Assembly: GCA_017883285.1 (NCBI GenBank)
Contig: JADGNV010000122.1
Span: 26,152 to 90,151 of the forward strand
Reading direction: 5' to 3'
DNA length: 64,000 nucleotides
Source of the DNA: Candidatus Aminicenantota bacterium
GTDB lineage: Bacteria > Acidobacteriota > Aminicenantia > Aminicenantales > UBA4085
The notes beneath the pieces were generated by a model. The model worked only from the letters and a program-made list of their open reading frames with translations. It ran no database searches and was not told the origin of the DNA. Each line of letters opens with the position of its first letter. Position 1 is the first letter of the stretch. Made by a program: the position numbers and the translations under genes. Below, piece by piece: positions 37 through 16,566 of this stretch.

Positions 37-1092
37 ATGAAAAAACAAATCGCCGCTCTCGGCGTTCTTCTCGCGCTTCTGGCGGCCCTCGCGCCGGCCC
101 TGGGGGCCGGGCAGGCCGTGAACTCGCTCAAGGCCGTCGCGTTCCAGAAGACCGGCAGGGGGCTCGACGTGACGATCGCCGTCGAAGGCGAATTTCTCTA
201 TCAAGTCCAGGCCCTCTCGAACCCGACCCGCCTGGCGATCGACCTCTCGTCCCTCTCGAAGATCGACGCCCAGCCGCTAACCGAGGTCAACCAGGCCGGC
301 CTGAGCAGCATCCGCACCGGACAGTTCACGCCGCTCATCGCCCGGGTCGTCATCGATTTCAGCGGGGCCATGCCCGGCTACGAGATCGCCAGGACCGATA
401 CGGGGCTCGTCATCCGCTTCGGCGGAGATGCGAAGCCCGCCGAAAAGCCGGTCGTCATTGCGCCGCCCGTCCGGGAACAGCCCGTGCAGATCGTGAAGCC
501 GATCGAAACGCCCGCCGAGACCGAGCCCGGCGAAACCCGCAAGGGGTTTATGAACACGATGATCGGGTTCAATATCGGAACCTATCAGATCCCTTCGGAC
601 CGGTTCAAGGAGATCTACGGCGGGGACGCGACCCCGACGTTCGGGCTGAGCCTGTCCCGGACGTTCGCTCAGTATAAGGACTTTTCCCTCGACGTCGAGT
701 GGGGGATCCGGTTCTATTCCAAGACCGGGGCCGCGACGCTCTCGCAGGAGCCGGCGACATTCAAGATGACGCCGATCTCCCTCGCGGCGCGGCTCAACTA
801 CCAGGCGAAGTTCTTCCAGATGTTCGTGGGCTACGGGCTCGACTGGTACAGCTACGCGGAGACGAGCACGATCGCGGATACGACGGGGAACGCGAACGGC
901 AACCACTTCATCGCCGGGATCTATCTGATTCCGCCGGTGCTCGACGGGATGATCCGGGTGAAGGCGTACTACAAGTTCACGAGAGTGACGGCGAGCTCGA
1001 ACGGGATCGACGTCGACCTCGGAGGGAACGAGTACGGCGTAGGTCTGAGCTTCGGGTTCAACGTCTTCCAGAAGGCCGTGTTCCTGTTCTGA
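37..1092 (+). CDS. AMIN-domain outer-membrane beta-barrel protein
   Basis: A 351-residue secreted protein. Residues 1-24 form a signal peptide (MKK start, Leu/Ala-rich core, ALGA cleavage site). Residues about 28-130 match the AMIN fold, a periplasmic peptidoglycan- or envelope-binding domain (repeated beta strands, 'TRLAIDL', 'ARVVIDFSG', 'GLVIRFGG'). A Pro/Glu-rich linker (about 133-168) leads to a beta-barrel-like C-terminal half of alternating hydrophobic/aromatic strands that ends in Phe, as outer-membrane proteins do. The Shine-Dalgarno AAGGAGGA lies 8 nt before ATG. The C-terminal half is related to the barrel protein at 18273-18857. The ligand is unknown. Monocistronic: a rho-independent terminator follows. 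Confidence 0.8.
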   Translation: MKKQIAALGVLLALLAALAPALGAGQAVNSLKAVAFQKTGRGLDVTIAVEGEFLYQVQALSNPTRLAIDLSSLSKIDAQPLTEVNQAGLSSIRTGQFTPLIARVVIDFSGAMPGYEIARTDTGLVIRFGGDAKPAEKPVVIAPPVREQPVQIVKPIETPAETEPGETRKGFMNTMIGFNIGTYQIPSDRFKEIYGGDATPTFGLSLSRTFAQYKDFSLDVEWGIRFYSKTGAATLSQEPATFKMTPISLAARLNYQAKFFQMFVGYGLDWYSYAETSTIADTTGNANGNHFIAGIYLIPPVLDGMIRVKAYYKFTRVTASSNGIDVDLGGNEYGVGLSFGFNVFQKAVFLF

Positions 1093-1169: not shown

Positions 1170-2621
1170 ATGACCCAAGACGAAAATCGGAGCGGGACGA
1201 TCGGACGCGCGGACGCCGCCTTCGTCAATCCCGCCTTCGCCTATCCGATCATCAAGGACAGGGGCGTCTTCTATACCAAGAAATGGCCTCCCCTGTCCCT
1301 GGCCTACGGCGCCGCCCTCATGGAAGAGAGCGGTCGCCGGGCGATGATCGTCGACGCCCACGCCGAGCGGTTGGGGCCGGAGCGCGTCGCGGACCGGGTC
1401 CGGGGCGTCCCTTCGATCTTCATCTCGACGAGCCCCCTCGACCGCTGGCAGTGCCCGGTGAACAACATCGCCAACGTCTACGAGGTCATCTCCGCCGTCC
1501 GCGCCGCGTCGCCGGGAAGCCGCATTTTCCTGACGGGCCCGCACGGGACGACCCTTCCCGAAAAAATCCTGGCCGAGACCCCGGCCGACGTCGTGATCCT
1601 GGGCGAGCCCGAGATCACGGTTCGGGAGCTGGCCGCGGGTCGCGCGCCGGAGGAGCTCGAAGGCGTGGCCTTCCGCGACGGCGGCCGGGCCGTCGTCCGG
1701 CCCAAGACGAAGTTCATGAACCTGAACGAGCTGCCCCTGCCCGCGTTTCACCTCCTGCCGATGGACCGGTATTTCTTTGATTTCCTCGGGAAAAAGTTCG
1801 CCGTCCTGGAGGGCACGCGCGGCTGCCCCTACCGCTGCTCGTTCTGCTACAAGGACATGTACGGCCCCTTCCGGTCGAAGACGAGCGCCAAGCTCATCGT
1901 CGAGCTCGATCTCGCCGTCGAAAAATTCGGCGTGCGGAACCTCTACTTCGCCGACCTGTCCTTCACCCTGAACAAGAAGCTCGTGGCCGACCTGTGTGGG
2001 GCGATCGTCGAGCGGGGCACCAAGCTCCGCTGGGCCTGCCAGACGCGCCTCGACCTCATCGACGAAGAGATCCTGACGAAGATGGCCGAGGCCGGCTGCC
2101 GACTGATCGAGGTCGGCGTCGAATCCGGCACGGAGACGATCGTCCGCCGAACGAACAAGTACATCCCGCCCCGGACCATCACCGAAGGCCTGCGGATGAT
2201 CCGCCGCCTGGGAATGGAGAGCGCGGCCTTCATGATGTTCGGCCTGCCGAACGAGACCGAGGAGGACATGCGGCGGAGCATCCGCTTCGTCAAGAAGATC
2301 GCCCCGACGTATGTCGCCTTCAACATCACCGTCCCCTACACCGAGACGTGCAACGCCGAGCTTTTCGAACCGTCGGCCGAGAGGGCGGTGTTCTTCCCGG
2401 CCCGGTGGAAGGCCCATACCGAGAAATTCCTGGACGCCATGCTCCGCCGGGGGATGATGTCCTTCTACCTCCGCCCGCGAACGGTCCTGACGCTCGTCCG
2501 GAACCCCCGGGCCTTCCTCCACAAAGTCGGCCTGTTCTTCGCCGCCGTGCGCGCCCGCAAGTTTGATGAGCGGCGCACGCCCCCGCCCCCCAGGTCAGTT
2601 GACTCCGGCCGCCGTTCATAA
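1170..2621 (+). CDS. B12-binding-domain radical SAM protein
   Basis: A 483-residue class-B-like radical SAM enzyme. The N-terminal third (about 35-150) resembles the cobalamin-binding domain that precedes such enzymes. The [4Fe-4S] cluster motif CPYRCSFC gives Cys219, Cys223 and Cys226. Typical downstream elements follow ('LYFADLSFTLNKK', 'GCRLIEVGVESG', 'FMMFGLPNETEEDM'). ATG1170 is preferred; the reading frame extends further upstream only through the previous gene and its terminator. Family members catalyse methylations or rearrangements in lipid, hopanoid and antibiotic synthesis. Its substrate is unknown, but it sits next to a GT-C glycosyltransferase and faces a sugar cluster, so an envelope-lipid or sugar role is an inference. 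Confidence 0.85.
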   Translation: MTQDENRSGTIGRADAAFVNPAFAYPIIKDRGVFYTKKWPPLSLAYGAALMEESGRRAMIVDAHAERLGPERVADRVRGVPSIFISTSPLDRWQCPVNNIANVYEVISAVRAASPGSRIFLTGPHGTTLPEKILAETPADVVILGEPEITVRELAAGRAPEELEGVAFRDGGRAVVRPKTKFMNLNELPLPAFHLLPMDRYFFDFLGKKFAVLEGTRGCPYRCSFCYKDMYGPFRSKTSAKLIVELDLAVEKFGVRNLYFADLSFTLNKKLVADLCGAIVERGTKLRWACQTRLDLIDEEILTKMAEAGCRLIEVGVESGTETIVRRTNKYIPPRTITEGLRMIRRLGMESAAFMMFGLPNETEEDMRRSIRFVKKIAPTYVAFNITVPYTETCNAELFEPSAERAVFFPARWKAHTEKFLDAMLRRGMMSFYLRPRTVLTLVRNPRAFLHKVGLFFAAVRARKFDERRTPPPPRSVDSGRRS

Positions 2622-4824
2622 TAAGATTTTTTCCCGAACCGGGGACCGACATCCCGGAAAGAGGACGCTCATTCCCGACGCCAAGCCGCTCCTGCGAAAT
2701 GGGGCCATCTATTTTCTGCTGTTCGCCTTGTTTTTCGGACCGCGCCTCGTCAACCTGTCTGCAGACCCGCCCAACAATCTCAGCCTGGACAGCGGCAGCG
2801 AATACGGCGACCCCGGCAACTACGCCTTCAACGCCCGCAGCAAGGTCACGCTCGGAGATTGGAAAGTCGGGGAGCTCGGGGCGGCGGCCTTCTCCCCGAT
2901 CCCCCATGCCCTGACCTACCTTGTCTTCCTCATCTTCGGGACCGGGATCGGACAGATGAACCTCGTCCCGCTCCTATTCGCCATGCTGCTCTGGCTGGCC
3001 CTCTTCCGGCTGGCATCGGACTTCTTCCCCGAATACCGGCTTTTGTTTTTCCTTCTCCTCACCGCGAACTATGCCTTCGGGAGCTACGCCCGGATCAACG
3101 ACCAGGTCATGCCGATGGCCTTTTTCGCGGTGGTCGCTTTGATCTTCTTCCTCAAAGCCTGGGACAGGCCGGGGTATTTTTTCCTGACGGCGATCTTCTT
3201 CGGATTCTCCTTCCTTTCGAAAAACGTCAAGATTCTCTATTTCGCCGCGGCCGTCATCCCGCTGGCCTTCGTCCTCATCACGATCCAGAGGGGCGAGATC
3301 AAACGGGTCCGGCTTCATCTCGTCCGCCTCGGATATGCGCTGGCCGGAATCCTGGCCGTCTTCATTCCCTGGTATTTTCTGATTTACCTCCGTTATCCGG
3401 AAGTCTTCCAAAGCATCGCCGCGATAAATACCGGGGCGGCCGCTCCCGGAGTGATCGGCGCCTTGGTGAAAAATTGGCTGGTCCGGCCGCCGTTCACGTT
3501 CTTCCCCGCGAACCGGGCCCTCGCCGTCCCGCTCTTCCTCTATTTCCTCGGCCTGCTGGGGACCCTGACCGCCCGGCGATGGAAAGCGCGCTGCTCGCCC
3601 CTGGAAATCGTCGCCGCGCTCTGGTTCGTGGTCGGCGTGGGCATTAACTCGCTCATCGGCTACCGGCCCGTGCGGCACTACATCGACTTGACGATCCCCC
3701 TGCTCATCCTGGTCAGCCTGTTTCTCGGAAGATTCCTCCGCGGTTTCGAATGGTCGTTCGCGAAAAGCCGGAGCGCCGAGCTGTTCGCCGGGCTCTTCGC
3801 CTTGATCTGGGTTGCGCTGTCCTCCATGCGCAACGGCCCGCTGCCCTGGGGATGGATCGACCGGGACCCCGTCACGGTCCTCGAGCTCTCCCTTGTCCTG
3901 GCGCTCGGCCTGGCCGTCATCCTCGGCTTGGCCCTCCGCTATACCGGCGACAAGCCCCGGACCGTCCCGCGCGCTTGGGCAGCGCCCCTCGTCGTCATCC
4001 TGATCGGGATTTACGTTTATCAAAATGTGGTCGAGTACGTGACCTGGCGCCGGACGCTGAGCTACGAACTCCGGACCATCGGCCGGGATTTGGGCCAGGC
4101 GTTCCCCCAGGGCGTGTTCTCGGGACTGCTTGCGCCGAGCCTTTCGCTCGAAAACCGGAACCCGGCCCATACGATGTACCCCCACTACGCCAATGACGAC
4201 CCCGGCTTTCTCGAGCGCGAGCGGGTGACGCATCTCTTCCTGGGGACCTACAACAATGAACAGCAGCATTACGACAATCTGTTTCCGGACGTCATGAAGA
4301 GGGCCCGGCTCCTCGTCCTCTACCGGATGTGGCGGAGCTGGTGGACGCTCTTCGACATAGCCAAGGACCTGCCGCCGGAGGACCCGGCCGTCCACGAGGC
4401 CGAGACGATGGAGCGGAGCGCCGGAACGCCCCTCTTCGACCCGCCGGCGGGAGGCCGGTTCGCGGTCCGCATCGATTCGCCCGATTGGGAGACCATCGGC
4501 CGCGACCGAATCGCCCTGCCGGTCCGCGGGGCCGTCCGCGGTCGACTCTTCGTCCGGCCGGCGGGAAACGGCCCCCTGGGCCTGCGCCTCTACGTCCGGC
4601 TGGCCTTGAGAGGCCGAACCGTTTTCAAGAAATTGTTCGTCGTGCAGGAATCGGGGAGCTCCCAGGACTACATCGGGCTCCCCTTTCAGGCCTGGATCGA
4701 AACAGCCGGGCGCTATCTCCTCGAAGTTCGGGCCGTGGGAACGGGATCGTTCTTTTTCGACAAGATCGAAATCCGGCCGAAATCGCAGAGCTCACCCGCC
4801 GGGACCGCGGATTCGAAACGGTAG
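2566..4824 (+). CDS. GT-C (ArnT/PMT-like) membrane glycosyltransferase
   Basis: An integral membrane protein with about 10-12 hydrophobic segments in the first 480 residues, then a soluble periplasmic C-terminal domain. The first loop carries the acidic GT-C signature ('EYGDPGNYAFNAR'), as in ArnT-type enzymes that take a sugar from a polyprenyl-phosphate carrier. The start is uncertain. TTG2563/ATG2566 lie inside the upstream gene without a ribosome site and give a non-membrane N-terminal tail. An in-frame ATT at 2671, six bases after GGAAAGAGG, would give a 717-residue protein starting just before the first membrane helix. The gene converges on the minus-strand sugar operon. Function by family; sugar unknown. 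Confidence 0.75.
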   Translation: MSGARPRPPGQLTPAAVHNKIFSRTGDRHPGKRTLIPDAKPLLRNGAIYFLLFALFFGPRLVNLSADPPNNLSLDSGSEYGDPGNYAFNARSKVTLGDWKVGELGAAAFSPIPHALTYLVFLIFGTGIGQMNLVPLLFAMLLWLALFRLASDFFPEYRLLFFLLLTANYAFGSYARINDQVMPMAFFAVVALIFFLKAWDRPGYFFLTAIFFGFSFLSKNVKILYFAAAVIPLAFVLITIQRGEIKRVRLHLVRLGYALAGILAVFIPWYFLIYLRYPEVFQSIAAINTGAAAPGVIGALVKNWLVRPPFTFFPANRALAVPLFLYFLGLLGTLTARRWKARCSPLEIVAALWFVVGVGINSLIGYRPVRHYIDLTIPLLILVSLFLGRFLRGFEWSFAKSRSAELFAGLFALIWVALSSMRNGPLPWGWIDRDPVTVLELSLVLALGLAVILGLALRYTGDKPRTVPRAWAAPLVVILIGIYVYQNVVEYVTWRRTLSYELRTIGRDLGQAFPQGVFSGLLAPSLSLENRNPAHTMYPHYANDDPGFLERERVTHLFLGTYNNEQQHYDNLFPDVMKRARLLVLYRMWRSWWTLFDIAKDLPPEDPAVHEAETMERSAGTPLFDPPAGGRFAVRIDSPDWETIGRDRIALPVRGAVRGRLFVRPAGNGPLGLRLYVRLALRGRTVFKKLFVVQESGSSQDYIGLPFQAWIETAGRYLLEVRAVGTGSFFFDKIEIRPKSQSSPAGTADSKR

Positions 4825-4837
4825 CGATCGGACCGCG

Positions 4838-5713
4838 TCAACCCTTCAGCAGCGCCTTGGCCACCGAGAACGTGTGGTAGGCCTCGGGGACCGATCCGAC
4901 TCCCACGATCACGGACTCGATCTTCTTGTCGACGACGTACGCGAACGCCTCTTCGGGCGACAGCCGCCCCCCTGCCAGCACCTTCTTGGCGATGATCTGG
5001 TAGCCGGACTCCGCCACGAGCTTCTCGCACTCCGCCTGGGTCGGCTTCATCATGAACCCCTTGGAATTCATGGGGGCCATGATCGGGAGCTTAAGCTTCC
5101 ACTCGATCAGGTGCGGCAGGAGCGTGCCGAAGTTGTGCGTGGCGAGGACGGTGTCGAGGCCGTAGGAGTCCTTGATCATGTCCTGGAAAATCGAAAGGAG
5201 ATCGGGATTCTGAGACGCAAGGGCCAGGTCGGTCACCTGGCCGTGGAGGATCACGCCGCCGAGGTTCAGCTTCTCGAAGCTCGCCAGCTCGAAATGGATG
5301 AGCTCCAGGAGGAGGTCCATGACGTCCTTGGAGAGGACGCTCTTGATCTTGGTCAGCGCCCGGAGCCCGAGCCGCATCTTCTGATACATGCTGAAACCCT
5401 TGGCCTTGGACAGGACCGCGCCGAGCACGCCCCGCTCCGAGGCCTCCATGGCATACTCGTAGGCGTTCGGAATGACCGGCATGACCTTGAGCTCCCCGAC
5501 CTTGGGAAATTTCTTCAGGGCGGCCATGATGTTGTCGCAGTTCGAGCAGACGAACGTCCGGACGCCCAGCGTGTGGGCCGCTTCGAGGACGGCCACGATG
5601 TTGTCTTCCTTGGCGAAGTGTTCCTGGAAATGGAGGGCCTGGGTCCGCGAAGTATAGCTGACGCCTTCGAAGGCGTTCGAACCGAGGATGAGCTTGTCGA
5701 GTTGCATGGTCAT
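4838..5713 (-). CDS. TIM-barrel, aldo/keto reductase-like protein
   Basis: A 291-residue cytoplasmic protein of alternating beta/alpha units. It has features reminiscent of the aldo/keto reductase fold: 'LILGSNAFEG' near the N-terminus, 'ELIHFELASFEKLNLGGVILHG' in the middle, and a C-terminal 'VLAGGRLSPEEAFAYV...ESVIVGVGS' like the AKR NADP-binding end. The canonical catalytic Asp/Tyr/Lys/His set is not clearly recognisable, so activity is open. It is the last gene of the minus-strand sugar operon, coupled to the Gfo/Idh gene by an ATGA overlap. I infer a tailoring or epimerising role in the same sugar pathway. Confidence 0.55.
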   Translation of the reverse strand: MTMQLDKLILGSNAFEGVSYTSRTQALHFQEHFAKEDNIVAVLEAAHTLGVRTFVCSNCDNIMAALKKFPKVGELKVMPVIPNAYEYAMEASERGVLGAVLSKAKGFSMYQKMRLGLRALTKIKSVLSKDVMDLLLELIHFELASFEKLNLGGVILHGQVTDLALASQNPDLLSIFQDMIKDSYGLDTVLATHNFGTLLPHLIEWKLKLPIMAPMNSKGFMMKPTQAECEKLVAESGYQIIAKKVLAGGRLSPEEAFAYVVDKKIESVIVGVGSVPEAYHTFSVAKALLKG

Positions 5714-6768
5714 TTCACCTCGTCGAGAGTGACCGCCGCCTTCCGTTCGGCCGACCGGTAGATCGCCTCGATCATCCGCTGGACGGCGAACCCGTCGGCC
5801 CAGGTCACGGCCGGGGCCGTCCCGGCCCGGCAGGCCCGGACAAAGTCCTGGTCCTCCTCGTAGAGCCCCTCGGCCCCGAGCTCAAAGCGCGATGTGGAGG
5901 GCATATCGATCTTGTGAATCGTCGTGAAGTCCTTGGGGTATCCCTTGGCAGCCTTGTAGAGGTAGAGCTTGACGTAGTCGTTGTTCAGCTCGAGGGTGCC
6001 GTTGTCGCCCTCGACGATGAGCTCCATATAGGGCAGGCGATAGCCTGGCAGGCTCCAAGAGACATCGAACGTGCCGGTCATTCCGTCGGGATATTCGAAC
6101 AGGGCGGTCGCCGTGTCCTCGACGATCGAATAGGGAAAGCCGATCCGGGCGACGACGCTCGCCGGAAGGCCGAAATAGGCATAGAGGAGATAGAGCAGAT
6201 GCGAGCCGACATTGATGACGACTCCCCCGCCGGACTGGGCCTTGTCGTAGTACCAGCCTTTTTTCCGGGAGAAGACCTCGGTCGTGTAGAAGGAGGAGCG
6301 ATAGCGGAAGGGCCGGCCGACCACACCGTCGGCCAGCAGGGCTTTGGCCTTCTTGCAGAGGGCCATCTGGGAAAGCAGGTAGCCCGTGGCGTTGACGACC
6401 TTCTTCTCCGCGGCCAGGGCGACCATCCGCCGGGCCGCCTCGAGGGTGTGGGCTAGGGGCTTTTCGGCGAAGACGTGCAGGCCGTATTTCAAGCACTGTT
6501 CGGCGACGGGCAGGTTCGCGGCGGCCGGGGTGCAGATCAGGGCCGCATCGGGCTTGACCTCCGTCAGCATTTTGTCCACATCGGAATAGAACGGCGCCTT
6601 CAGGCCCGCCTGCCGGACGTAGGTGGCCAGCTGCTTATTGATGTCCGCCACCGCGGCCAGCCGCGACTCGGGGATCATGTTCACCAGGGCGGTGTGGATG
6701 ATCCCCATCTTCCCCAAGCCGATGACGGCAACCTTGAGCTTGTCTTGGAGCTTATCCTGTGTTTCCAA
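5710..6768 (-). CDS. Gfo/Idh/MocA-family sugar dehydrogenase
   Basis: A 352-residue NAD(P)-dependent oxidoreductase. The N-terminal Rossmann fold begins 'VAVIGLGKMG' (residues 13-22). The family signature 'AEKPLAHT' (101-108) supplies the Lys-Pro that positions substrate and cofactor. The C-terminal alpha/beta domain includes 'GGGVVINVGSHLLYLL', which contributes the usual His. The start is TTG at 6768, supported by AAGGAG 8 nt upstream. In nucleotide-sugar pathways such enzymes oxidise C3 (or C2/C4) before transamination. Its direct neighbour is a DegT aminotransferase, which supports a ketosugar-to-aminosugar route. Substrate inferred from context. Confidence 0.85.
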   Translation of the reverse strand: METQDKLQDKLKVAVIGLGKMGIIHTALVNMIPESRLAAVADINKQLATYVRQAGLKAPFYSDVDKMLTEVKPDAALICTPAAANLPVAEQCLKYGLHVFAEKPLAHTLEAARRMVALAAEKKVVNATGYLLSQMALCKKAKALLADGVVGRPFRYRSSFYTTEVFSRKKGWYYDKAQSGGGVVINVGSHLLYLLYAYFGLPASVVARIGFPYSIVEDTATALFEYPDGMTGTFDVSWSLPGYRLPYMELIVEGDNGTLELNNDYVKLYLYKAAKGYPKDFTTIHKIDMPSTSRFELGAEGLYEEDQDFVRACRAGTAPAVTWADGFAVQRMIEAIYRSAERKAAVTLDEVK

Positions 6769-6802
6769 CGTTCAATCTCCTTGGGCGCAGCGGCGCCGCT
6801 CG

Positions 6803-7771
6803 TCATTCCCCTTTGTAATACAGGGGGACGCACCAGTGGTTCTTGGCCGCCCAGTCGGAGTTGGGCAGCTCGCCGTCCCGGCCCATGATCCGATGGCAGG
6901 GCTGGTCGTAGACCTTTCCGGTCGATTTCTCGATCGGGTCGAAGACGATGTATTTGTAATAGCCCGAGGCCATCCCGGCCGGGAACTTCACCCGGTTCGG
7001 GAATTTCGGGTCGAAGTGCTTCTCGGCGTAGGCTTTCTTCCAGGCCACGATATCGGCCATCCGGTCCACCTGGACGACGCCCAGGGCCGCGCCGAACTCG
7101 TTGATCCGCTGGTTCTGGCCGGGGACGACGTAGTCGGGCTTCCCGTAGTTGCGGCTCCGCTTGGCGTATTCCAGGAGTCCCACGTCCGCCGTGGCGAGGA
7201 TGCCGCCCTCGCCGGTGGTGATCGTCTTGGTCGCGTAGAACGAATAGACGCCCGCCGCGCCCCAGGTGCCGGGCTTGCGTCCGTTCCAGGAGGCGCCATG
7301 GGCGTGGGCGCAGTCCTCGAGGAGGACGATGTCCCGCTCTTTGCAGAACCGGGCGATCTCCTCGATCTCGAAGGCGATGTGGCCTCCGATATGGACGACC
7401 CACACGGCCGCCGGCCGGAACTTCTCGGCCTTGCGCTTGAGGTCGGCGAACGAGAGGCAAAGGTCCTCGCGGTTGCAGTCCACGAACTCGAGCCGGGCCC
7501 CGGCCTTGACAACGCTCAGGGGGGTGGCCATGAAGGTGTTCGAAGGGCAGAGCACGGTCCGGCCCTGGACCTTGAAGTATTCGAGAGCGGCCAGGGCGGC
7601 GCCGCTCCAGCTCGAGAAGGCGAGAGAGGGCAGGCCGTTCCAGGCCGCCCATTTCTCCTCGAAGAGCGTCGTGAAGCGGCCCTCGGTCCACTGCTGGGTG
7701 GAGAAGATTTCGTCCCAGTATTCGTGCGCTTTCTTTCGGTCGTCCAAATCGAAGCCGATCGTGAATTTCAT
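6803..7771 (-). CDS. DegT/DnrJ/EryC1-family sugar aminotransferase
   Basis: A 322-residue PLP-dependent aminotransferase, slightly shorter than the usual 360-400. The PLP lysine is Lys182 in 'YATKTITTGEGG'. 'LLEDCAHAHGA' (about 150-160) carries the Asp that contacts the pyridine nitrogen. 'SWSGAALAALEYF' and 'PSNTFMAT' line the cofactor pocket. AAAGGAG 8 nt upstream fixes the ATG. The family adds an amino group to keto-sugar nucleotides. With the adjacent dehydrogenase it forms the same pair as WlbA/WlbE-type 3-aminosugar synthesis, although the position on the ring cannot be read from sequence. Confidence 0.88.
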   Translation of the reverse strand: MKFTIGFDLDDRKKAHEYWDEIFSTQQWTEGRFTTLFEEKWAAWNGLPSLAFSSWSGAALAALEYFKVQGRTVLCPSNTFMATPLSVVKAGARLEFVDCNREDLCLSFADLKRKAEKFRPAAVWVVHIGGHIAFEIEEIARFCKERDIVLLEDCAHAHGASWNGRKPGTWGAAGVYSFYATKTITTGEGGILATADVGLLEYAKRSRNYGKPDYVVPGQNQRINEFGAALGVVQVDRMADIVAWKKAYAEKHFDPKFPNRVKFPAGMASGYYKYIVFDPIEKSTGKVYDQPCHRIMGRDGELPNSDWAAKNHWCVPLYYKGE

Positions 7772-7802
7772 GCCGAGTTCTCCTTTGCCCGGGGCCGCCG
7801 CC

Positions 7803-8183
7803 CTATTTCCCGGTCACCAGGACCGCGATCCCGGCCGTGATCAGGAGCAGGGCCACGATCTTGGCCGGCGTGATCGCCTCCTTGAACAGGAGGGCGGCGA
7901 AGGCCATGGTCGCCACGAACAGCACGCCCTGGATGATGAGCGTCGTGGTGATGATCTCGGCTTTGCGGATGATGAACATGTAGATAAGATAGCCCGTCCC
8001 GCTGAAGAAAAGCGAGATGAGGACGTATTTCGAGGTGACGATTTCCTTGACGATGGCGAAGATCCCCCCGGAGAACTTGAAATCGACCGCGCCCTTCTTG
8101 AGGACCGTGCCGGCGAACCCATAGACCACGCCGCTCACGACGGCGAGTAGGAAATAGCCGAGGCTGTAATAATTGATTTTCAC
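7803..8183 (-). CDS. Four-helix SMR/EamA-type membrane protein (ArnE/F-like flippase subunit)
   Basis: A 126-residue protein made almost entirely of four membrane segments (roughly residues 8-27, 41-62, 70-92, 100-122), the size and layout of small multidrug-resistance proteins and of ArnE/ArnF. The membrane glutamate of EmrE-type drug pumps is not present in helix 1, which fits a lipid-carrier translocase better than a drug antiporter. The GTG start at 8183 is preceded by GAGG; longer in-frame extension runs through the GT2 gene and is rejected. It lies 10 nt downstream of the GT2 gene. I infer that it flips the polyprenyl-phosphate sugar made by GT2. Confidence 0.7.
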   Translation of the reverse strand: MKINYYSLGYFLLAVVSGVVYGFAGTVLKKGAVDFKFSGGIFAIVKEIVTSKYVLISLFFSGTGYLIYMFIIRKAEIITTTLIIQGVLFVATMAFAALLFKEAITPAKIVALLLITAGIAVLVTGK

Positions 8184-8193
8184 GGCACCGTCC

Positions 8194-8970
8194 TCAGCGA
8201 AAGATGTTCCGGAGCAGGGTCCGGAAGAAGAGCACCGGCCAGGACAGCACATAGACGAAGTCCTTGATCCGGACCGCTCCCCCCGAAAGGCCGTAATTGC
8301 CGTAGATCCGGGAGACATCGTCCGCCCGCTTGTAGAACCGGCCGGGGACTTCGACCACCTGGAAGCCCTTTTTGGCCATGATATAGAGCTCCTCGAGGTC
8401 GTTGATCCGGCCGTCATGGAGCTTGGTCGATGTTTTGTAAATGCCCGACAGGACGTCCATCACCCGCCGGTTCCAGCCTTTGAATCCCGAGCTCGAATCC
8501 GTGATCCGGGTCCGGAACTTGTGGTAGAAGAGCAGGCTCACGACGAAGGAATAGAGCCGCCGGCCGTATTTGTGGAGGAACGGGTCGCCGTGAGAGGCGC
8601 TGCCGAGAACGCGAGAGGCGATGACGTAATCGGGGCCGGACGCCAGGGCGTCGATGATCCGGCCGATGTCCTGGGGCTCGTGCTGCCCGTCCGCGTCGCA
8701 GAGAACGAGGTAGGCGTAGCCGTGCTCGAGGGCGTACTGCCGGGCGGACTGGAGGGCGCGGGCGTAGCCGTAGTTCCGATCGTGCTTTAACAGAAGCGCG
8801 CGCTTGGCCAGGGCGATGTCCGATGTCCGGTCCGAGCTCCCGTCATCCACGATAAGGATATCGGTTCCAGGAAAATAGCGTTTGATCTGGTCCAGGACCG
8901 GTCCAAGCTTCTTTTCCTCGTCCTTGGCCGGAAGGGAAATCAAGACGCTTTTTTTCATTTCGCGATTCAT
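8194..8970 (-). CDS. GT2 polyprenyl-phosphate glycosyltransferase (DPM1/ArnC-like)
   Basis: A GT-A-fold family 2 transferase of 254-258 residues. It shows 'VLISLPAKDEEK', the nucleotide-binding 'ILIVDDGSSDRT', and the metal-binding DXD-type motif 'CDADGQHE'. A basic hydrophobic C-terminus ('DFVYVLSWPVLFFRTLLRNIF') suggests membrane attachment. Such enzymes move a sugar from a nucleotide donor to polyprenyl phosphate on the inner face. Two starts are possible: ATG8970 (MNREMKK) or ATG8958 (MKKS). A near-consensus promoter ends only about 15 nt before 8970, so the message has almost no leader. It is the first gene of the five-gene minus-strand sugar operon. Confidence 0.82.
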   Translation of the reverse strand: MNREMKKSVLISLPAKDEEKKLGPVLDQIKRYFPGTDILIVDDGSSDRTSDIALAKRALLLKHDRNYGYARALQSARQYALEHGYAYLVLCDADGQHEPQDIGRIIDALASGPDYVIASRVLGSASHGDPFLHKYGRRLYSFVVSLLFYHKFRTRITDSSSGFKGWNRRVMDVLSGIYKTSTKLHDGRINDLEELYIMAKKGFQVVEVPGRFYKRADDVSRIYGNYGLSGGAVRIKDFVYVLSWPVLFFRTLLRNIFR

Positions 8971-8985
8971 CGGATTAAAGCGTAT

Positions 8986-9014
8986 ACTATAAAGCCCTGT
9001 GTCCGAAAAGTCAA
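8986..9014 (-). promoter_or_regulatory. Sigma70-type promoter of the sugar operon
   Basis: On the minus strand, TTGACT (9009-9014), exactly 17 bp, then TATAGT (8986-8991). The predicted transcript starts about 8 nt before ATG8970 or 20 nt before ATG8958. It drives the GT2-flippase-DegT-Gfo/Idh-TIM operon. Confidence 0.75.
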
Positions 9015-11270: not shown

Positions 11271-12908
11271 ATGAAAAAGAAATGGCTGTTCCTGGTCCTG
11301 TCGGCATCCGTATCCATAATGCTGGCCGCCGGAGCGCAGAATTCGAAAAAAACGCAGGCGGGCCCGAAGGCCGCGCCGCAGAAAAAGACGGCGGCGGCCC
11401 GGGTCAAGGCTGCCGGAACGCCCGTTCAAATCCAGATGCTCGACGGACTGCCGGCGGGCTGGGCATCCCTGAAGAACGTCTCGAATAACGCGACCGACAG
11501 CGAAGTCGCGGTCGGGGCCGTCGACGCCAAGGGCAACGCCTATTGCGTCTGGACGGAATGGTTCGGCGGGGTAGGCGCGCCGCGGAATATGACGTTCGCC
11601 ACGAACAAGTCGGGGACGTGGTCCACGCCCTTCGGCTGGGAGCTCGACTATCCCGACATCGACGACGTCGGATTCCCCGCCCTGGCCGTCACGACCGACG
11701 GCAACACCTCCGTCGTGGCCTATCATGACGGCGACTTGTCGCTAAACCTGATGGCCATCAAGGAACGGGAACTGGTGAACGGGACCTGGAGCGCGGTGAA
11801 GAACATCTCGGGCGCGGACGAGGCCTCATCCTACGTCACGCTCTCCACGAATCCGGTGGACAACACCATCTTCGCCGTCTGGATGGCCGACTTCGACCCC
11901 ATGAAATTGAAGTACAAATTCCGGGACCCGAGCTCGGGGCAGTGGAGCGGCGGGATGTTGGTCAACAGCGGGACGGTCGGGGGGCAATATCTCCCGAACC
12001 TCTATATCGACAAGAACGGCACGGCCCACCTCGTCTACATTGTCCGTAACGGCAACGCCTCGGTCTGGTACACAAAGAACACCAACCCGAGAGACAATTC
12101 CGGCTGGACGACGCCCCTCCAGGTTGCGGCCGACTCCGGCCTCGCCTGGACCTACCCCAAGGTGACGGCCGATTGGGACGGCGACGCTTATGTCTCCTGG
12201 CAGGGAGTCGATAAGGGCGTGAACTCGATCATGCTGCGCACCATGATCGACGGCTCATGGGGGACCGCCCAGAATTTATCGAACCTCCCCGATCTCTCCG
12301 AGACGGCCTATGTCGCCGTCAACGGGGCGACGAACGAAATGTTCGTCGTCTGGCAGACGGCCTTCGGGTATTCGACGGGGAACATCAACTGGGACATCTG
12401 CATGAAGACCTACGAAATCAACAAGACGACGGGCCAAAAGGAATGGTCGGACATCTACCGGCTGACACGATACCCCGGCCACGCGGGCGAACCGCAGATC
12501 AAGATCACGAAGGAGGGGGACCTGCACCTGTTCTTCTTCGACAACACCGTCGGGGACGGGGCGGCGGACATCTTCTATTCCTATAAAATGGCCCCCCGGC
12601 TCTACGCCGTCGGGGCGCCGACGGTGACGTCGCAGCTCAATAAGGTGCTTTTCGCCGCGGAGAAATGGAACACCGTCGCCTTCACCAAGAACCCGGACAA
12701 CGACGACACGAAGATCCAGGAATATCGCCTCTACCGGAAAAAGGTCGGCGAAAACGATGCCGCATTCGCCGTAATCGCGACGCTCAACATCTCGACGTTC
12801 CAGTATGTGGACAAGAAGTTGCCGGCCGGCCAACGCTACGCCTATCTGGTGAGCGTCGTGAACAAGGACGGGCTGGAACTCAAGTCGGGCGTCACGATCG
12901 AACCGTGA
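11271..12908 (+). CDS. Secreted beta-propeller/FN3 protein, paralogue 1
   Basis: 545 residues. Signal peptide at 1-21, then a Lys/Ala-rich linker to about 60, then repeated strands with 'AVDAKGNAYCVWTEW', 'AVTTDGNTSVVAY', 'LYIDKNGTAHLVYI' and 'VTADWDGDAYVSWQG', typical of BNR/sialidase-like propeller blades. From about residue 445 a fibronectin-III-like domain ('DTKIQEYRLYRKK', 'YAYLVSVVNKDGLELKS') closes the protein. No catalytic residues of sialidases can be assigned. It is about the same length and order as the protein at 16622-18202. Strong promoter and own leader. Probably an abundant periplasmic or surface protein; ligand unknown. Confidence 0.75.
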   Translation: MKKKWLFLVLSASVSIMLAAGAQNSKKTQAGPKAAPQKKTAAARVKAAGTPVQIQMLDGLPAGWASLKNVSNNATDSEVAVGAVDAKGNAYCVWTEWFGGVGAPRNMTFATNKSGTWSTPFGWELDYPDIDDVGFPALAVTTDGNTSVVAYHDGDLSLNLMAIKERELVNGTWSAVKNISGADEASSYVTLSTNPVDNTIFAVWMADFDPMKLKYKFRDPSSGQWSGGMLVNSGTVGGQYLPNLYIDKNGTAHLVYIVRNGNASVWYTKNTNPRDNSGWTTPLQVAADSGLAWTYPKVTADWDGDAYVSWQGVDKGVNSIMLRTMIDGSWGTAQNLSNLPDLSETAYVAVNGATNEMFVVWQTAFGYSTGNINWDICMKTYEINKTTGQKEWSDIYRLTRYPGHAGEPQIKITKEGDLHLFFFDNTVGDGAADIFYSYKMAPRLYAVGAPTVTSQLNKVLFAAEKWNTVAFTKNPDNDDTKIQEYRLYRKKVGENDAAFAVIATLNISTFQYVDKKLPAGQRYAYLVSVVNKDGLELKSGVTIEP

Positions 12909-13676: not shown

Positions 13677-15748
13677 TGAGAAGCTCCCGGACCGCCGACG
13701 TTTCCACCCCGGCGGTCGTCGCGGCCCTGTCTTTGGTCTTTATCTCCTACGAAGTCGCCCGGGTCCTCCGCGTCTCCATCACCTTCGACGAGGCAGCCAC
13801 CTTCCTGGTCTATATCAAGGGCGGTTTCCTGGCCCTGTTCAACTTCAACGAAGCCAACAACCATTTCCTGAACACCGTCCTGGCGAAGATCTTCACCATG
13901 ATCGGCGGGAACCATGACTTCGTCCTCCGGCTTCCGAACCTCCTGGGCTATGCCATATATCTCGCCTTCGCCTGGCTCCTCCTCAAAAGATTCGTCCGGG
14001 GGACGGCGGCCGTCCTCGGATTCGTTCTTCTCAACACGAACCCCTATGTCCTCGATTTCTTCTCGCTTTGCCGGGGCTACGGATTGTCCCTCGCTTTCCT
14101 GATGGCCTCTCTCTATTTCTTCACCCTCTTCCTCTCCCGCTCGAGCGAACAGGGATCGGAGGCCGATCGACTCCGCTCCTTGACCCGGGGTTTAGGGATG
14201 GCCGGCGTGGCCGTCCTATGCAATTTCGCGCTGCTCGACGTCTATTGCAGCCTGCTGGTCGTGGCCGCCCTTGTCCTCATCCTTGGCCGCGGGAAGGGCA
14301 GGGACGGACTTCAGATCGATCCGGCCGGCCCGAGCCGGTTTCCGGGCAGAAAGGCGGTCGTGGGATTGATTTTTCTTGCCGCCGTTTTCAATATGCTCGT
14401 CATATCCCAGGATCTGGAGCTGTCCGATTCGCTCTTCGAACCGGTCAAGATCAGGATCCCCGGCCTGGCCCTGGCAGACGCCGGCCGGATCGTCGTCAAC
14501 GGCCTGGACGAGAAAAAGGCCGAAATCCCGTCGCTGTTTAAGAACGACGAGTGGACGATCGGCGGCAAGACCGAATTCGTGGCGGGACTCCATTTCGAGA
14601 TCCCGGCGGACGCTCTCCATGCCGTTCAAGGCCTCGAGATCCATATCGGCAGCCGGACGTTCCCCATCACCAGCCAGGATTTGCGGGCCCGGTTGAACGG
14701 CCGGAAAAACCTCATTTTTAACGGCGACGAGATGATCTCCTTGAAGAGGTCTGTCCTCCCCCTTTTCAAGCCGGCCATCAATTGGAAGGGAGACGCGAAC
14801 CACCTTCGGCTAATCGCTCTCCGGTTTATGCTTCTCGCAGCGGTCTTCGCCCTGGCCGTCCTCTTCGTTTACGGAGCCGGCCGATTCTGCGTTCGACTGA
14901 AGATCCTGGGCCGGGAAGCCTACTGGAGGCTCGCCCTCCCGACCTTGGTCCTGGGCGGGCTCGTCGCCTATCCGCTTTTTCTGCTCAAGGAGGAAGGAAG
15001 TCTCTATTGGGGCGGAAACCAGGGGCTCATCCACGACACGTGGACGACCCTTGTCGACAGCTCTTTTTACGGAACGCTCTATTCGTCGCGACAGAACCTT
15101 TGGGTCGGTCTCGTCGGCATGGTCGCGACGGTCCTCTTCGCCTGGGCGATGGCCGCTCACGCTCGGAAAAAAACGCTGGCGACACACCTGCCGGAAGCGT
15201 TGATCCCGGCCGTCATCGTTTTGGCCGTCCTAGCCATGATCCTTCAGAACATTCTCTTCAATACCCTCTTCCTGATCGGAAGAACGGCTCTGTTCTTCAT
15301 CCCGCTGTCCGCGCTCTTCCTCGTCATTTCGCTGTCCTCTTTTGGGAAATTGAGCCGGACGGCCAAAGGCGTCTCTCTGTCGCTTTTGGTTGTTATCACT
15401 CTCTTTTCGGCCTATCACTTTTTCCGGACGGCAAACACGGCCATCACCGTGGAATGGCGGTTCAATGCGGATACCAAGCAGGTGATTTCGGACTTGGAGC
15501 ATCTGAAAAACGAACGCACTCCTCGCCCCAAAACGATCCGATTGGGGGTCGATTGGATCTTTTTCCCACCCTTCGTGTATTACCAAAAACAGGCCGATCT
15601 GGCCTGGCTGGATGTTCGCTCGTACGCGAAGAGGGAAAAGAACGACGTGTACTATCTGGAACGGGCGTTCAACCCCGACCTGATGGTCCTGATCAAAAGC
15701 TATCCCGCGACCGGAAATATCCTGGTCCGGCCCAAGAACGACGAATGA
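13676..15748 (+). CDS. Polytopic GT-C-like glycosyltransferase (second copy type)
   Basis: 690 residues with about ten membrane helices. An acidic motif after helix 1 ('TFDEAATFLVYIKGG') and 'NEANNHFLNTVLAKIFTMIGG' resemble the first lumenal loop of PMT/ArnT GT-C enzymes. A soluble insertion (about 225-360) sits between the helix blocks. ATG13676 overlaps the methyltransferase stop. Not closely similar to the GT-C at 2566-4824. It is followed 47 nt later by a GT2 that could provide its polyprenyl-phosphate-sugar donor. Function by fold only. Confidence 0.65.
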   Translation: MRSSRTADVSTPAVVAALSLVFISYEVARVLRVSITFDEAATFLVYIKGGFLALFNFNEANNHFLNTVLAKIFTMIGGNHDFVLRLPNLLGYAIYLAFAWLLLKRFVRGTAAVLGFVLLNTNPYVLDFFSLCRGYGLSLAFLMASLYFFTLFLSRSSEQGSEADRLRSLTRGLGMAGVAVLCNFALLDVYCSLLVVAALVLILGRGKGRDGLQIDPAGPSRFPGRKAVVGLIFLAAVFNMLVISQDLELSDSLFEPVKIRIPGLALADAGRIVVNGLDEKKAEIPSLFKNDEWTIGGKTEFVAGLHFEIPADALHAVQGLEIHIGSRTFPITSQDLRARLNGRKNLIFNGDEMISLKRSVLPLFKPAINWKGDANHLRLIALRFMLLAAVFALAVLFVYGAGRFCVRLKILGREAYWRLALPTLVLGGLVAYPLFLLKEEGSLYWGGNQGLIHDTWTTLVDSSFYGTLYSSRQNLWVGLVGMVATVLFAWAMAAHARKKTLATHLPEALIPAVIVLAVLAMILQNILFNTLFLIGRTALFFIPLSALFLVISLSSFGKLSRTAKGVSLSLLVVITLFSAYHFFRTANTAITVEWRFNADTKQVISDLEHLKNERTPRPKTIRLGVDWIFFPPFVYYQKQADLAWLDVRSYAKREKNDVYYLERAFNPDLMVLIKSYPATGNILVRPKNDE

Positions 15749-15780
15749 TCCCTTCGAGCCTCTTTTTCAATATGAAGAAT

Positions 15781-15788
15781 GCTATAAT
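15781..15788 (+). promoter_or_regulatory. Extended -10 promoter, near-leaderless GT2
   Basis: A TGC upstream of TATAAT (TATAAT at 15783-15788) lies 7 nt before the ATG of the GT2 gene. Transcription would start at or within two bases of the A of ATG. The immediate -35 region has no clear hexamer. Confidence 0.6.
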
Positions 15789-15795
15789 TTAAACC

Positions 15796-16482
15796 ATGAA
15801 ATTATCCGTTGTCATTCCCGTCTATAACGAGAAGAATACAATTGCGGACATTATCGGGTTTGTCAAAGCCGTAGAAGATTTGGATAAGGAAATTATTGTC
15901 GTCGACGATGGCAGCAAAGATGGAACCGTAAAAATCCTGAAAGATCTTGAAAAAGTTCATCCCGATGTGAAGTTTTATTATAAAGAAAAAAACGTAGGCA
16001 AAGGCGATACTTTGCGCATCGGTTTCAGCCATACGACCGGTGATTATGTCATCGTCCAGGATGCCGATTTGGAATACGATCCCCAGGACTACAAAAAGCT
16101 TCTCCGGGCTTTAACTGAAGAAAAGGCTGACGTCGTTTACGGATCCAGATTTTCCGGAACTCGCAAAGATATGTCAACGGTTCAATATTTCGGAAATAAA
16201 CTCTTAACGATAATTACGAATCTGCTTTTTGGGATCATGCTGACCGATATGGAGACGTGCTATAAACTTATACCGGGGGATTTTGTCAGAAAGCTTCAGA
16301 TAAAATCGCCGAGGTTCGATTTTGAACCCGAAATCACGGCAAAAATACTAAAATCAGGTTTAAAATTGAAAGAAGTGCCCATTCACTACAAAGGCCGCAA
16401 ATATTCCGAAGGCAAGAAAATAACCTGGAAAGATGGTTTTGCCGCTTTATGGACCTTGTTTAAGTTTAGATTTTTCGACTGA
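15796..16482 (+). CDS. GT2 glycosyltransferase, dolichyl/polyprenyl-phosphate type, AT-rich
   Basis: 228 residues with 'LSVVIPVYNEKNTI', 'EIIVVDDGSKDGT', 'VIVQDADLEYDP' (DXD) and 'VYGSRF'. These are classic DPM1/GtrB-family signatures without the extra C-terminal membrane domains. Codon use is strikingly AT-rich (many AAA, GAA, TTT, ATA codons) compared with the GC-rich third positions of the neighbours, which suggests recent acquisition. It has its own leaderless-type promoter, so it need not depend on the upstream GT-C gene. Probably makes a polyprenyl-phosphate sugar. Confidence 0.85.
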   Translation: MKLSVVIPVYNEKNTIADIIGFVKAVEDLDKEIIVVDDGSKDGTVKILKDLEKVHPDVKFYYKEKNVGKGDTLRIGFSHTTGDYVIVQDADLEYDPQDYKKLLRALTEEKADVVYGSRFSGTRKDMSTVQYFGNKLLTIITNLLFGIMLTDMETCYKLIPGDFVRKLQIKSPRFDFEPEITAKILKSGLKLKEVPIHYKGRKYSEGKKITWKDGFAALWTLFKFRFFD

Positions 16483-16566
16483 TTCAAAACGGCCACCGAC
16501 CGGAGCGTAGCGACGCGGGATGGTCATTATACTTCTTTGTCGCCGGACTCGAGTCCCCCGGCCTTG

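Follow-up and report, generated by a model that had tools for sequence, protein, structure and literature searches.

Which product does a small operon of an Aminicenantes bacterium make, and which pathway does it belong to? The locus lies in a window of 64,000 nucleotides, the whole stretch of DNA analysed here, which comes from a metagenome-assembled genome of 3.09 Mb in 227 contigs. The initial annotation had seen in it a minus-strand operon with its own promoter, encoding a GT2 glycosyltransferase, an SMR-like protein, a DegT aminotransferase, a Gfo/Idh dehydrogenase and a TIM-barrel protein, and all these genes are indeed found where it had placed them (Table 1). They are closely packed, with 10, 31 and 34 nt separating successive genes from GT2 to Gfo/Idh and an overlap of 4 nt between the Gfo/Idh and barrel genes. 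The promoter-like site is sigma-70-like (10 of 12 matches, with 0.2 expected by chance) and is the only such site found; rsmA is divergent from the operon. At the other end, 13 nt separate the barrel gene from the GT-C gene.

Table 1. Features of the locus, in window coordinates.
Feature	Coordinates	Strand	Remarks
B12-binding radical SAM gene	1170..2621	+	upstream of GT-C; neighbour, non-core
GT-C (PMT_2) with C-terminal soluble domain	2566..4824	+	tail-to-tail with operon; start codon putative
AKR-fold TIM barrel, 291 aa	4838..5713	-	AKR catalytic tetrad absent; Gfo/Idh partner
Gfo/Idh/MocA dehydrogenase	5710..6768	-	TTG start; Pfam 85 bits
DegT/DnrJ/EryC1/StrS aminotransferase	6803..7771	-	322 aa, short C-terminus
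SMR/TMEM234-like 4-TM small membrane protein	7803..8183	-	GTG start; 126 aa; predicted flippase
GT2	8194..8970	-	first gene of the operon; predicted DPM/PpgS-type polyprenyl-phosphate sugar synthase
Promoter-like site TTGACT-17-TATAGT	8986..9014	-	just upstream of GT2

The five genes are found in the identical order, facing the GT-C, in a genome of the same genus (L011) and in one of another genus of the same family (L012), so that the arrangement is not fortuitous. Identities to L011 and L012 are respectively 90 and 84% for DegT, 89 and 81% for GT2, 75 and 78% for the SMR-like protein, 73 and 74% for the barrel, 62 and 64% for Gfo, and 66 and 52% for the GT-C. Among the 94 genomes of the order, the barrel is present in seven and strong DegT matches in four, three of which are the genomes having the full module; in a phylum sample of 297, a GT2 of high similarity occurs in the module's genus only. 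The genes of the module are inherited as one unit, present or absent together, with a single exception: in genome G304 the barrel and the DegT orthologue (65%) stand apart, the latter at locus L037 together with a UDP-GlcNAc 2-epimerase-like gene. Scattered homologues in relatives were the outcome that the initial annotation had set against its own proposal; the order is held in all three full-set genomes, and the pieces are jointly missing from most relatives. A literature search returned nothing on this module in Aminicenantes.

The GT2 matches Glycos_transf_2 of Pfam (69 bits) and possesses a DADGQH motif. Its best NCBIfam model is PpgS, a polyprenyl-phospho-GalNAc synthase (NF058614; 72 bits, below the cut-off of 370), and its nearest relative in the PDB is the dolichol-P-mannose synthase 5mlz (E 3e-9). 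The SMR-like protein has four hydrophobic helices and scores 26.3 bits for TMEM234 and 20.5 bits for EamA, both under the Pfam threshold; its AF2 model is poor (pLDDT 52). DegT (Pfam, 187 bits) contains the PLP lysine in the motif SFYATK, K182 being invariant in four orthologues, and its closest solved relatives are 2-deoxy-scyllo-inosose aminotransferases, with NtdA also among the matches. For Gfo/Idh the best PDB match is 6nor (E 1e-23), which we take to be GenD2, and the catalytic residues are kept: the EKP lysine K103 and the GSH histidine H190. Against the equivalog models of NCBIfam, every score of Gfo and DegT is far below cut-off.

The initial annotation called this set Arn-like. We compared 13 proteins of the window with those of the arn operon of E. 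coli K-12 by blastp and phmmer. DegT resembles ArnB at 27% over 206 aa (E 1e-16; 71.7 bits for the NCBIfam ArnB model, cut-off 631), and GT2 resembles ArnC at 21% (E 1.6e-7; NCBIfam 21.6 bits, cut-off 529): by sequence these two are related to their Arn counterparts at the superfamily level only. The SMR-like protein matches neither ArnE nor ArnF in these searches; EamA is matched on both sides, by ArnE above the cut-off and by the SMR-like protein and ArnF below it. The GT-C does face the operon, as had been described, but its likeness to ArnT stops at the broad PMT_2/GT-C level: the blastp match is not significant (E 1.4), and PF02366, which ArnT itself matches with 211 bits, does not recognise the GT-C. 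ArnA and ArnD have no significant counterpart among the 13 proteins. A polysaccharide deacetylase is found only in the related cluster L015. With the direct comparisons and the NCBIfam scores so far from the cut-offs, membership in Arn is rejected, and “Arn-like” is valid as an analogy only. The idea that a dehydrogenase and an aminotransferase stand in place of ArnA is nevertheless retained, the conserved unit having both and no ArnA.

What the initial annotation missed concerns the TIM barrel: it has an AKR fold without the tetrad, and it accompanies Gfo/Idh in several phyla. Its sequence has no match in Pfam, NCBIfam or the PDB, and a profile made from its alignment found only chance-level matches in the PDB. 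An AF2 model built from 14 homologues (pLDDT 82.7) has as best Foldseek hit the aldo-keto reductase PA4992 (4exa; E 1.4e-6, probability 1.00, TM 0.54). The barrel shares with aldo-keto reductases the fold and an AKR-like C-terminal motif, and differs from them by the missing Asp-Tyr-Lys-His tetrad. As read from the alignment at the strand ends, not from a superposition, the catalytic Asp, Tyr and Lys positions are occupied by C56 (C/L/F), N61 (N/S/K/R) and P82 (invariant), and the His position, on the same kind of reading, by H157, which is H or Q in homologues with one L. The conserved residues N13, T192, N194, N216 and D162 are located at or near the C-terminal ends of the modelled strands, which suggests that the barrel has a ligand pocket.

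Homologues of the barrel are found in Aminicenantes, Geothrix, Prevotellaceae and other Bacteroidales, Planctomycetota and Fibrobacterota, and also on plasmids of Bacteroides and Alphaproteobacteria, where three annotated copies are labelled “hypothetical protein”. In 17 of 18 loci, over five phyla, the barrel gene directly adjoins one for Gfo/Idh; in the remaining locus the two are about 1 kb apart. The distance matrices of the two proteins are correlated (r 0.92, with none of 2000 permutations as high, shared ancestry being uncorrected), which is consistent with co-evolution. Elsewhere the Gfo-barrel pair has as neighbours WecG/TagA transferases, a UDP-GlcNAc 2-epimerase or a formyltransferase, and this company points to nucleotide amino sugars. 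Most barrel loci are devoid of DegT, so that amination is not the general role of the barrel. We tentatively propose that these barrels form a new class of non-redox AKR-fold enzymes, possibly keto-sugar isomerases or epimerases, which would act on nucleotide sugars as obligate partners of a Gfo/Idh dehydrogenase. The pair would then be a two-gene cassette plugged into varied pathways, its companions being DegT, SMR, GT2 and GT-C in the present module, a SPASM radical SAM in other Aminicenantes, and WecG-type transferases in Bacteroidota and Alphaproteobacteria. This cassette, still unnamed, is the most interesting component of the module. On one Planctomycetota contig (L026, 1795-2571), a protein with a formyltransferase-N domain is encoded directly upstream of the pair.

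A second arrangement exists in another Aminicenantes family (L013, L014 and L015), with a SPASM radical SAM gene and a degenerate copy of Gfo (L013 9339-10391, L014 2675-3694, L015 10046-11062) ahead of the barrel. In these copies the EKP lysine and the histidine are lost, replaced by T/N and P/S, and this sequence pattern suggests that they are pseudo-enzymes or structural partners. L014 and L015 have in addition an intact Gfo, 46-47% identical to that of the window and convergent with the barrel. In L015, a cluster of 7 kb brings together GT-C (33%), GT2 (30%), Gfo (47%), barrel (57%), a polysaccharide deacetylase and the SPASM radical SAM, the latter two taking the place of DegT and SMR. 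With GT-C, GT2, Gfo and barrel grouped a second time, L015 offers the best argument that the chemistry of the carrier and that of the sugar form one system.

The GT-C scores 39 bits for PMT_2 in Pfam and has about 12 TM segments; a PDB profile search with its alignment gave no match at E 0.01. Its profile finds matches in 22 of the 94 members of the order, and some ten or more further Aminicenantes genomes, devoid of the module, have homologues of it beside other GT2 genes. A DPM-like GT2 is nearby in 10 of 13 GT-C loci. The partners vary: GT2 goes with DUF2304 in L075, L076 and, at a distance of about 5 kb, L079 (in L076 and L079 the small DUF2304 protein being recognised only by its similarity to that of L075); L078, L080 and L082 carry GT2b-type and B12-radical SAM genes; and deacetylases are found in L076, L077 and L082. 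From this context the GT-C appears as a general carrier-sugar-dependent transferase, which may use more than one donor. GT2b itself is a second DPM/AglJ-like GT2 of the window (15796-16482), with 40% GC against 63% for the window, in a local GC dip at 15500-16500; it was possibly acquired recently. Its relatives in L078, L080 and L082 (40-43%) adjoin the GT-C and B12-radical SAM genes. Two further observations concern the surroundings: a protein resembling AMIN-domain and outer-membrane-barrel proteins (window 37-1092) recurs beside the GT-C in L011, L012, L075-L077, L079, L081 and L082, and a family of large proteins predicted to be secreted (about 545 aa and longer; window 11271-12908) is repeated near such loci, in L011, L012 and many Aminicenantes genomes.

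The B12-radical SAM gene upstream of the GT-C has two Pfam matches (89 and 41 bits), and its best NCBIfam model is HpnJ (150 bits, cut-off 578). It is present in L011 and missing from L012 beside a full copy of the module; it is thus not core, and the suggestion that radical SAM methylation belongs to the set has to be dropped. A hopanoid link, on account of HpnJ/HpnA-like scores in this protein and in L015, was considered and rejected: the N-domain of squalene-hopene cyclase is absent from the five genomes searched, which makes hopanoids unlikely.

We turn to what the module may do, and regard as rather probable that it is a system for the supply and transfer of a lipid-linked amino sugar. 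In the cytoplasm, Gfo/Idh would oxidise a ring hydroxyl of a nucleotide sugar, probably a UDP-HexNAc and most likely at C3, to a ketone. The barrel, devoid of the redox tetrad, would bind this keto sugar and probably isomerise or epimerise it, or else stabilise it beside the dehydrogenase, and DegT would transaminate the ketone. The amino sugar would then be put onto polyprenyl phosphate by GT2, flipped across the membrane by the SMR-like protein, and passed to an envelope acceptor by the facing GT-C. Gene content and order, co-inheritance, fold and active-site residues are the observations from which we infer all the reactions, on which substrate they act, in which direction the sugar is flipped and what accepts it.

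Because homologues of the GT-C occur without the five-gene module, the GT-C here could use a different donor: the five genes would still make a lipid-linked amino sugar, beside a GT-C that takes its sugar from elsewhere, for example from GT2b, and is just a conserved neighbour. Unrelated donors of GT-C and GT2 are the other outcome that the initial annotation had set against its own proposal. Its transcription from the opposite strand goes in this direction, as do the roughly ten other Aminicenantes genomes where it stands beside GT2 and DUF2304 or beside GT2b-type and B12-radical SAM genes. However, the tail-to-tail placement is kept in three genomes, with GT-C identities of 52-66%, and GT-C, GT2, Gfo and barrel meet again in L015; we hold this separation to be improbable. 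An ordinary cassette for a polysaccharide or O-antigen sugar appears to us about equally improbable. GT2 would then be a plain glycosyltransferase, the SMR-like protein unrelated and the sugar destined for a cytoplasmic repeat unit, as might be expected from the presence of the Gfo-barrel pair in polysaccharide clusters elsewhere and from the epimerase-like gene next to the DegT orthologue of G304; but the inspected neighbours of the operon include no polymerase, Wzx or priming transferase, the best matches of GT2 are polyprenyl-P synthases, and the GT-C faces the operon.

There remains lipid A, which the initial annotation had named, beside another envelope lipid, as acceptor. LpxC is present in the five genomes tested out of five, that of the window included, so that lipid A is a plausible acceptor. 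The modification would be of Arn or Gnn type, either periplasmic as with ArnT or through UDP-GlcNAc3N as with GnnA/GnnB. The chemistry of Gfo plus DegT corresponds to that described for GnnA/GnnB (PMC5644692), and GT2, a 4-TM protein and a GT-C fit the logic of the Arn route (PMC12748117). Against it, no Arn family score comes near its cut-off, ArnA and ArnD are lacking and the GT-C is unlike ArnT; relatives of Gfo and DegT are not found beside lpxC in the three relatives L043-L045; and the module is missing from most Aminicenantes, although LpxC is in all genomes tested. Nothing found here links the module to lipid A, and we judge this reading unlikely. From the earlier interpretation as a whole, a co-inherited unit most likely making a lipid-linked amino sugar is what persists, without Arn membership, the radical SAM gene, lipid A as acceptor or the novelty of the Gfo plus DegT step. 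If our preferred reading of a supply and transfer system is right, it would provide a new sugar-supply route for the three-part systems of carrier, flippase and GT-C by which bacterial envelopes are decorated; the lineage concerned is known in this analysis from metagenome-assembled genomes only. An unannotated barrel family, linked to sugar dehydrogenases in several phyla and present in Bacteroides of the human gut, would moreover receive a first role open to testing.

How does the module compare with known systems? With ArnBCADTEF, which puts L-Ara4N on lipid A in E. coli, it has in common a logic of DegT, polyprenyl-P GT2, 4-TM proteins and GT-C; it differs by having neither ArnA nor ArnD, the keto sugar being presumably supplied by Gfo/Idh and the barrel, and one SMR gene instead of two. 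The exchange of OH for NH2 by a dehydrogenase and a PLP aminotransferase, predicted here, is also the work of GenD2/GenS2 (gentamicin), NtdC/NtdA (kanosamine) and WlbA/WlbE, which serve the synthesis of antibiotics or NDP-sugars and are not known to involve a lipid carrier or a partner of the barrel kind. GnnA and GnnB, of the Gfo/Idh and DegT families, feed LpxA and are not known to work with a GT2, a flippase, a GT-C or an AKR-fold partner. Like them, as compared by description and not by alignment, the module pairs an adjacent Gfo/Idh and DegT with intact catalytic residues. In the Gnn route the 3-OH of UDP-GlcNAc undergoes NAD-dependent oxidation, then transamination, giving UDP-GlcNAc3N for lipid A (PMC5644692). 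Gfo-type oxidation being already coupled there to transamination for lipid A, this step alone is not new, contrary to what had been claimed for the present locus.

On the side of the carrier, the mycobacterial PpgS (Rv3631)-Rv3779 pair of arabinogalactan works, as proposed for the module, through an amino sugar on polyprenyl-P and a transferase dedicated to it (PMC5964476). Its GalN derives from UDP-GalNAc with a later deacylation, instead of the dehydrogenase and transaminase of the module. In the Francisella route adding GalN to lipid A (undecaprenyl-P-GalN, NaxD), compared by description, a polyprenyl-P amino sugar again modifies the envelope, and a deacetylase intervenes, as one is present in L015; to our knowledge this route has no Gfo/Idh, DegT or barrel. 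By our comparisons a member of none of them, the module resembles Arn, PpgS-Rv3779 and the Francisella GalN route by analogy, in the way it would work.
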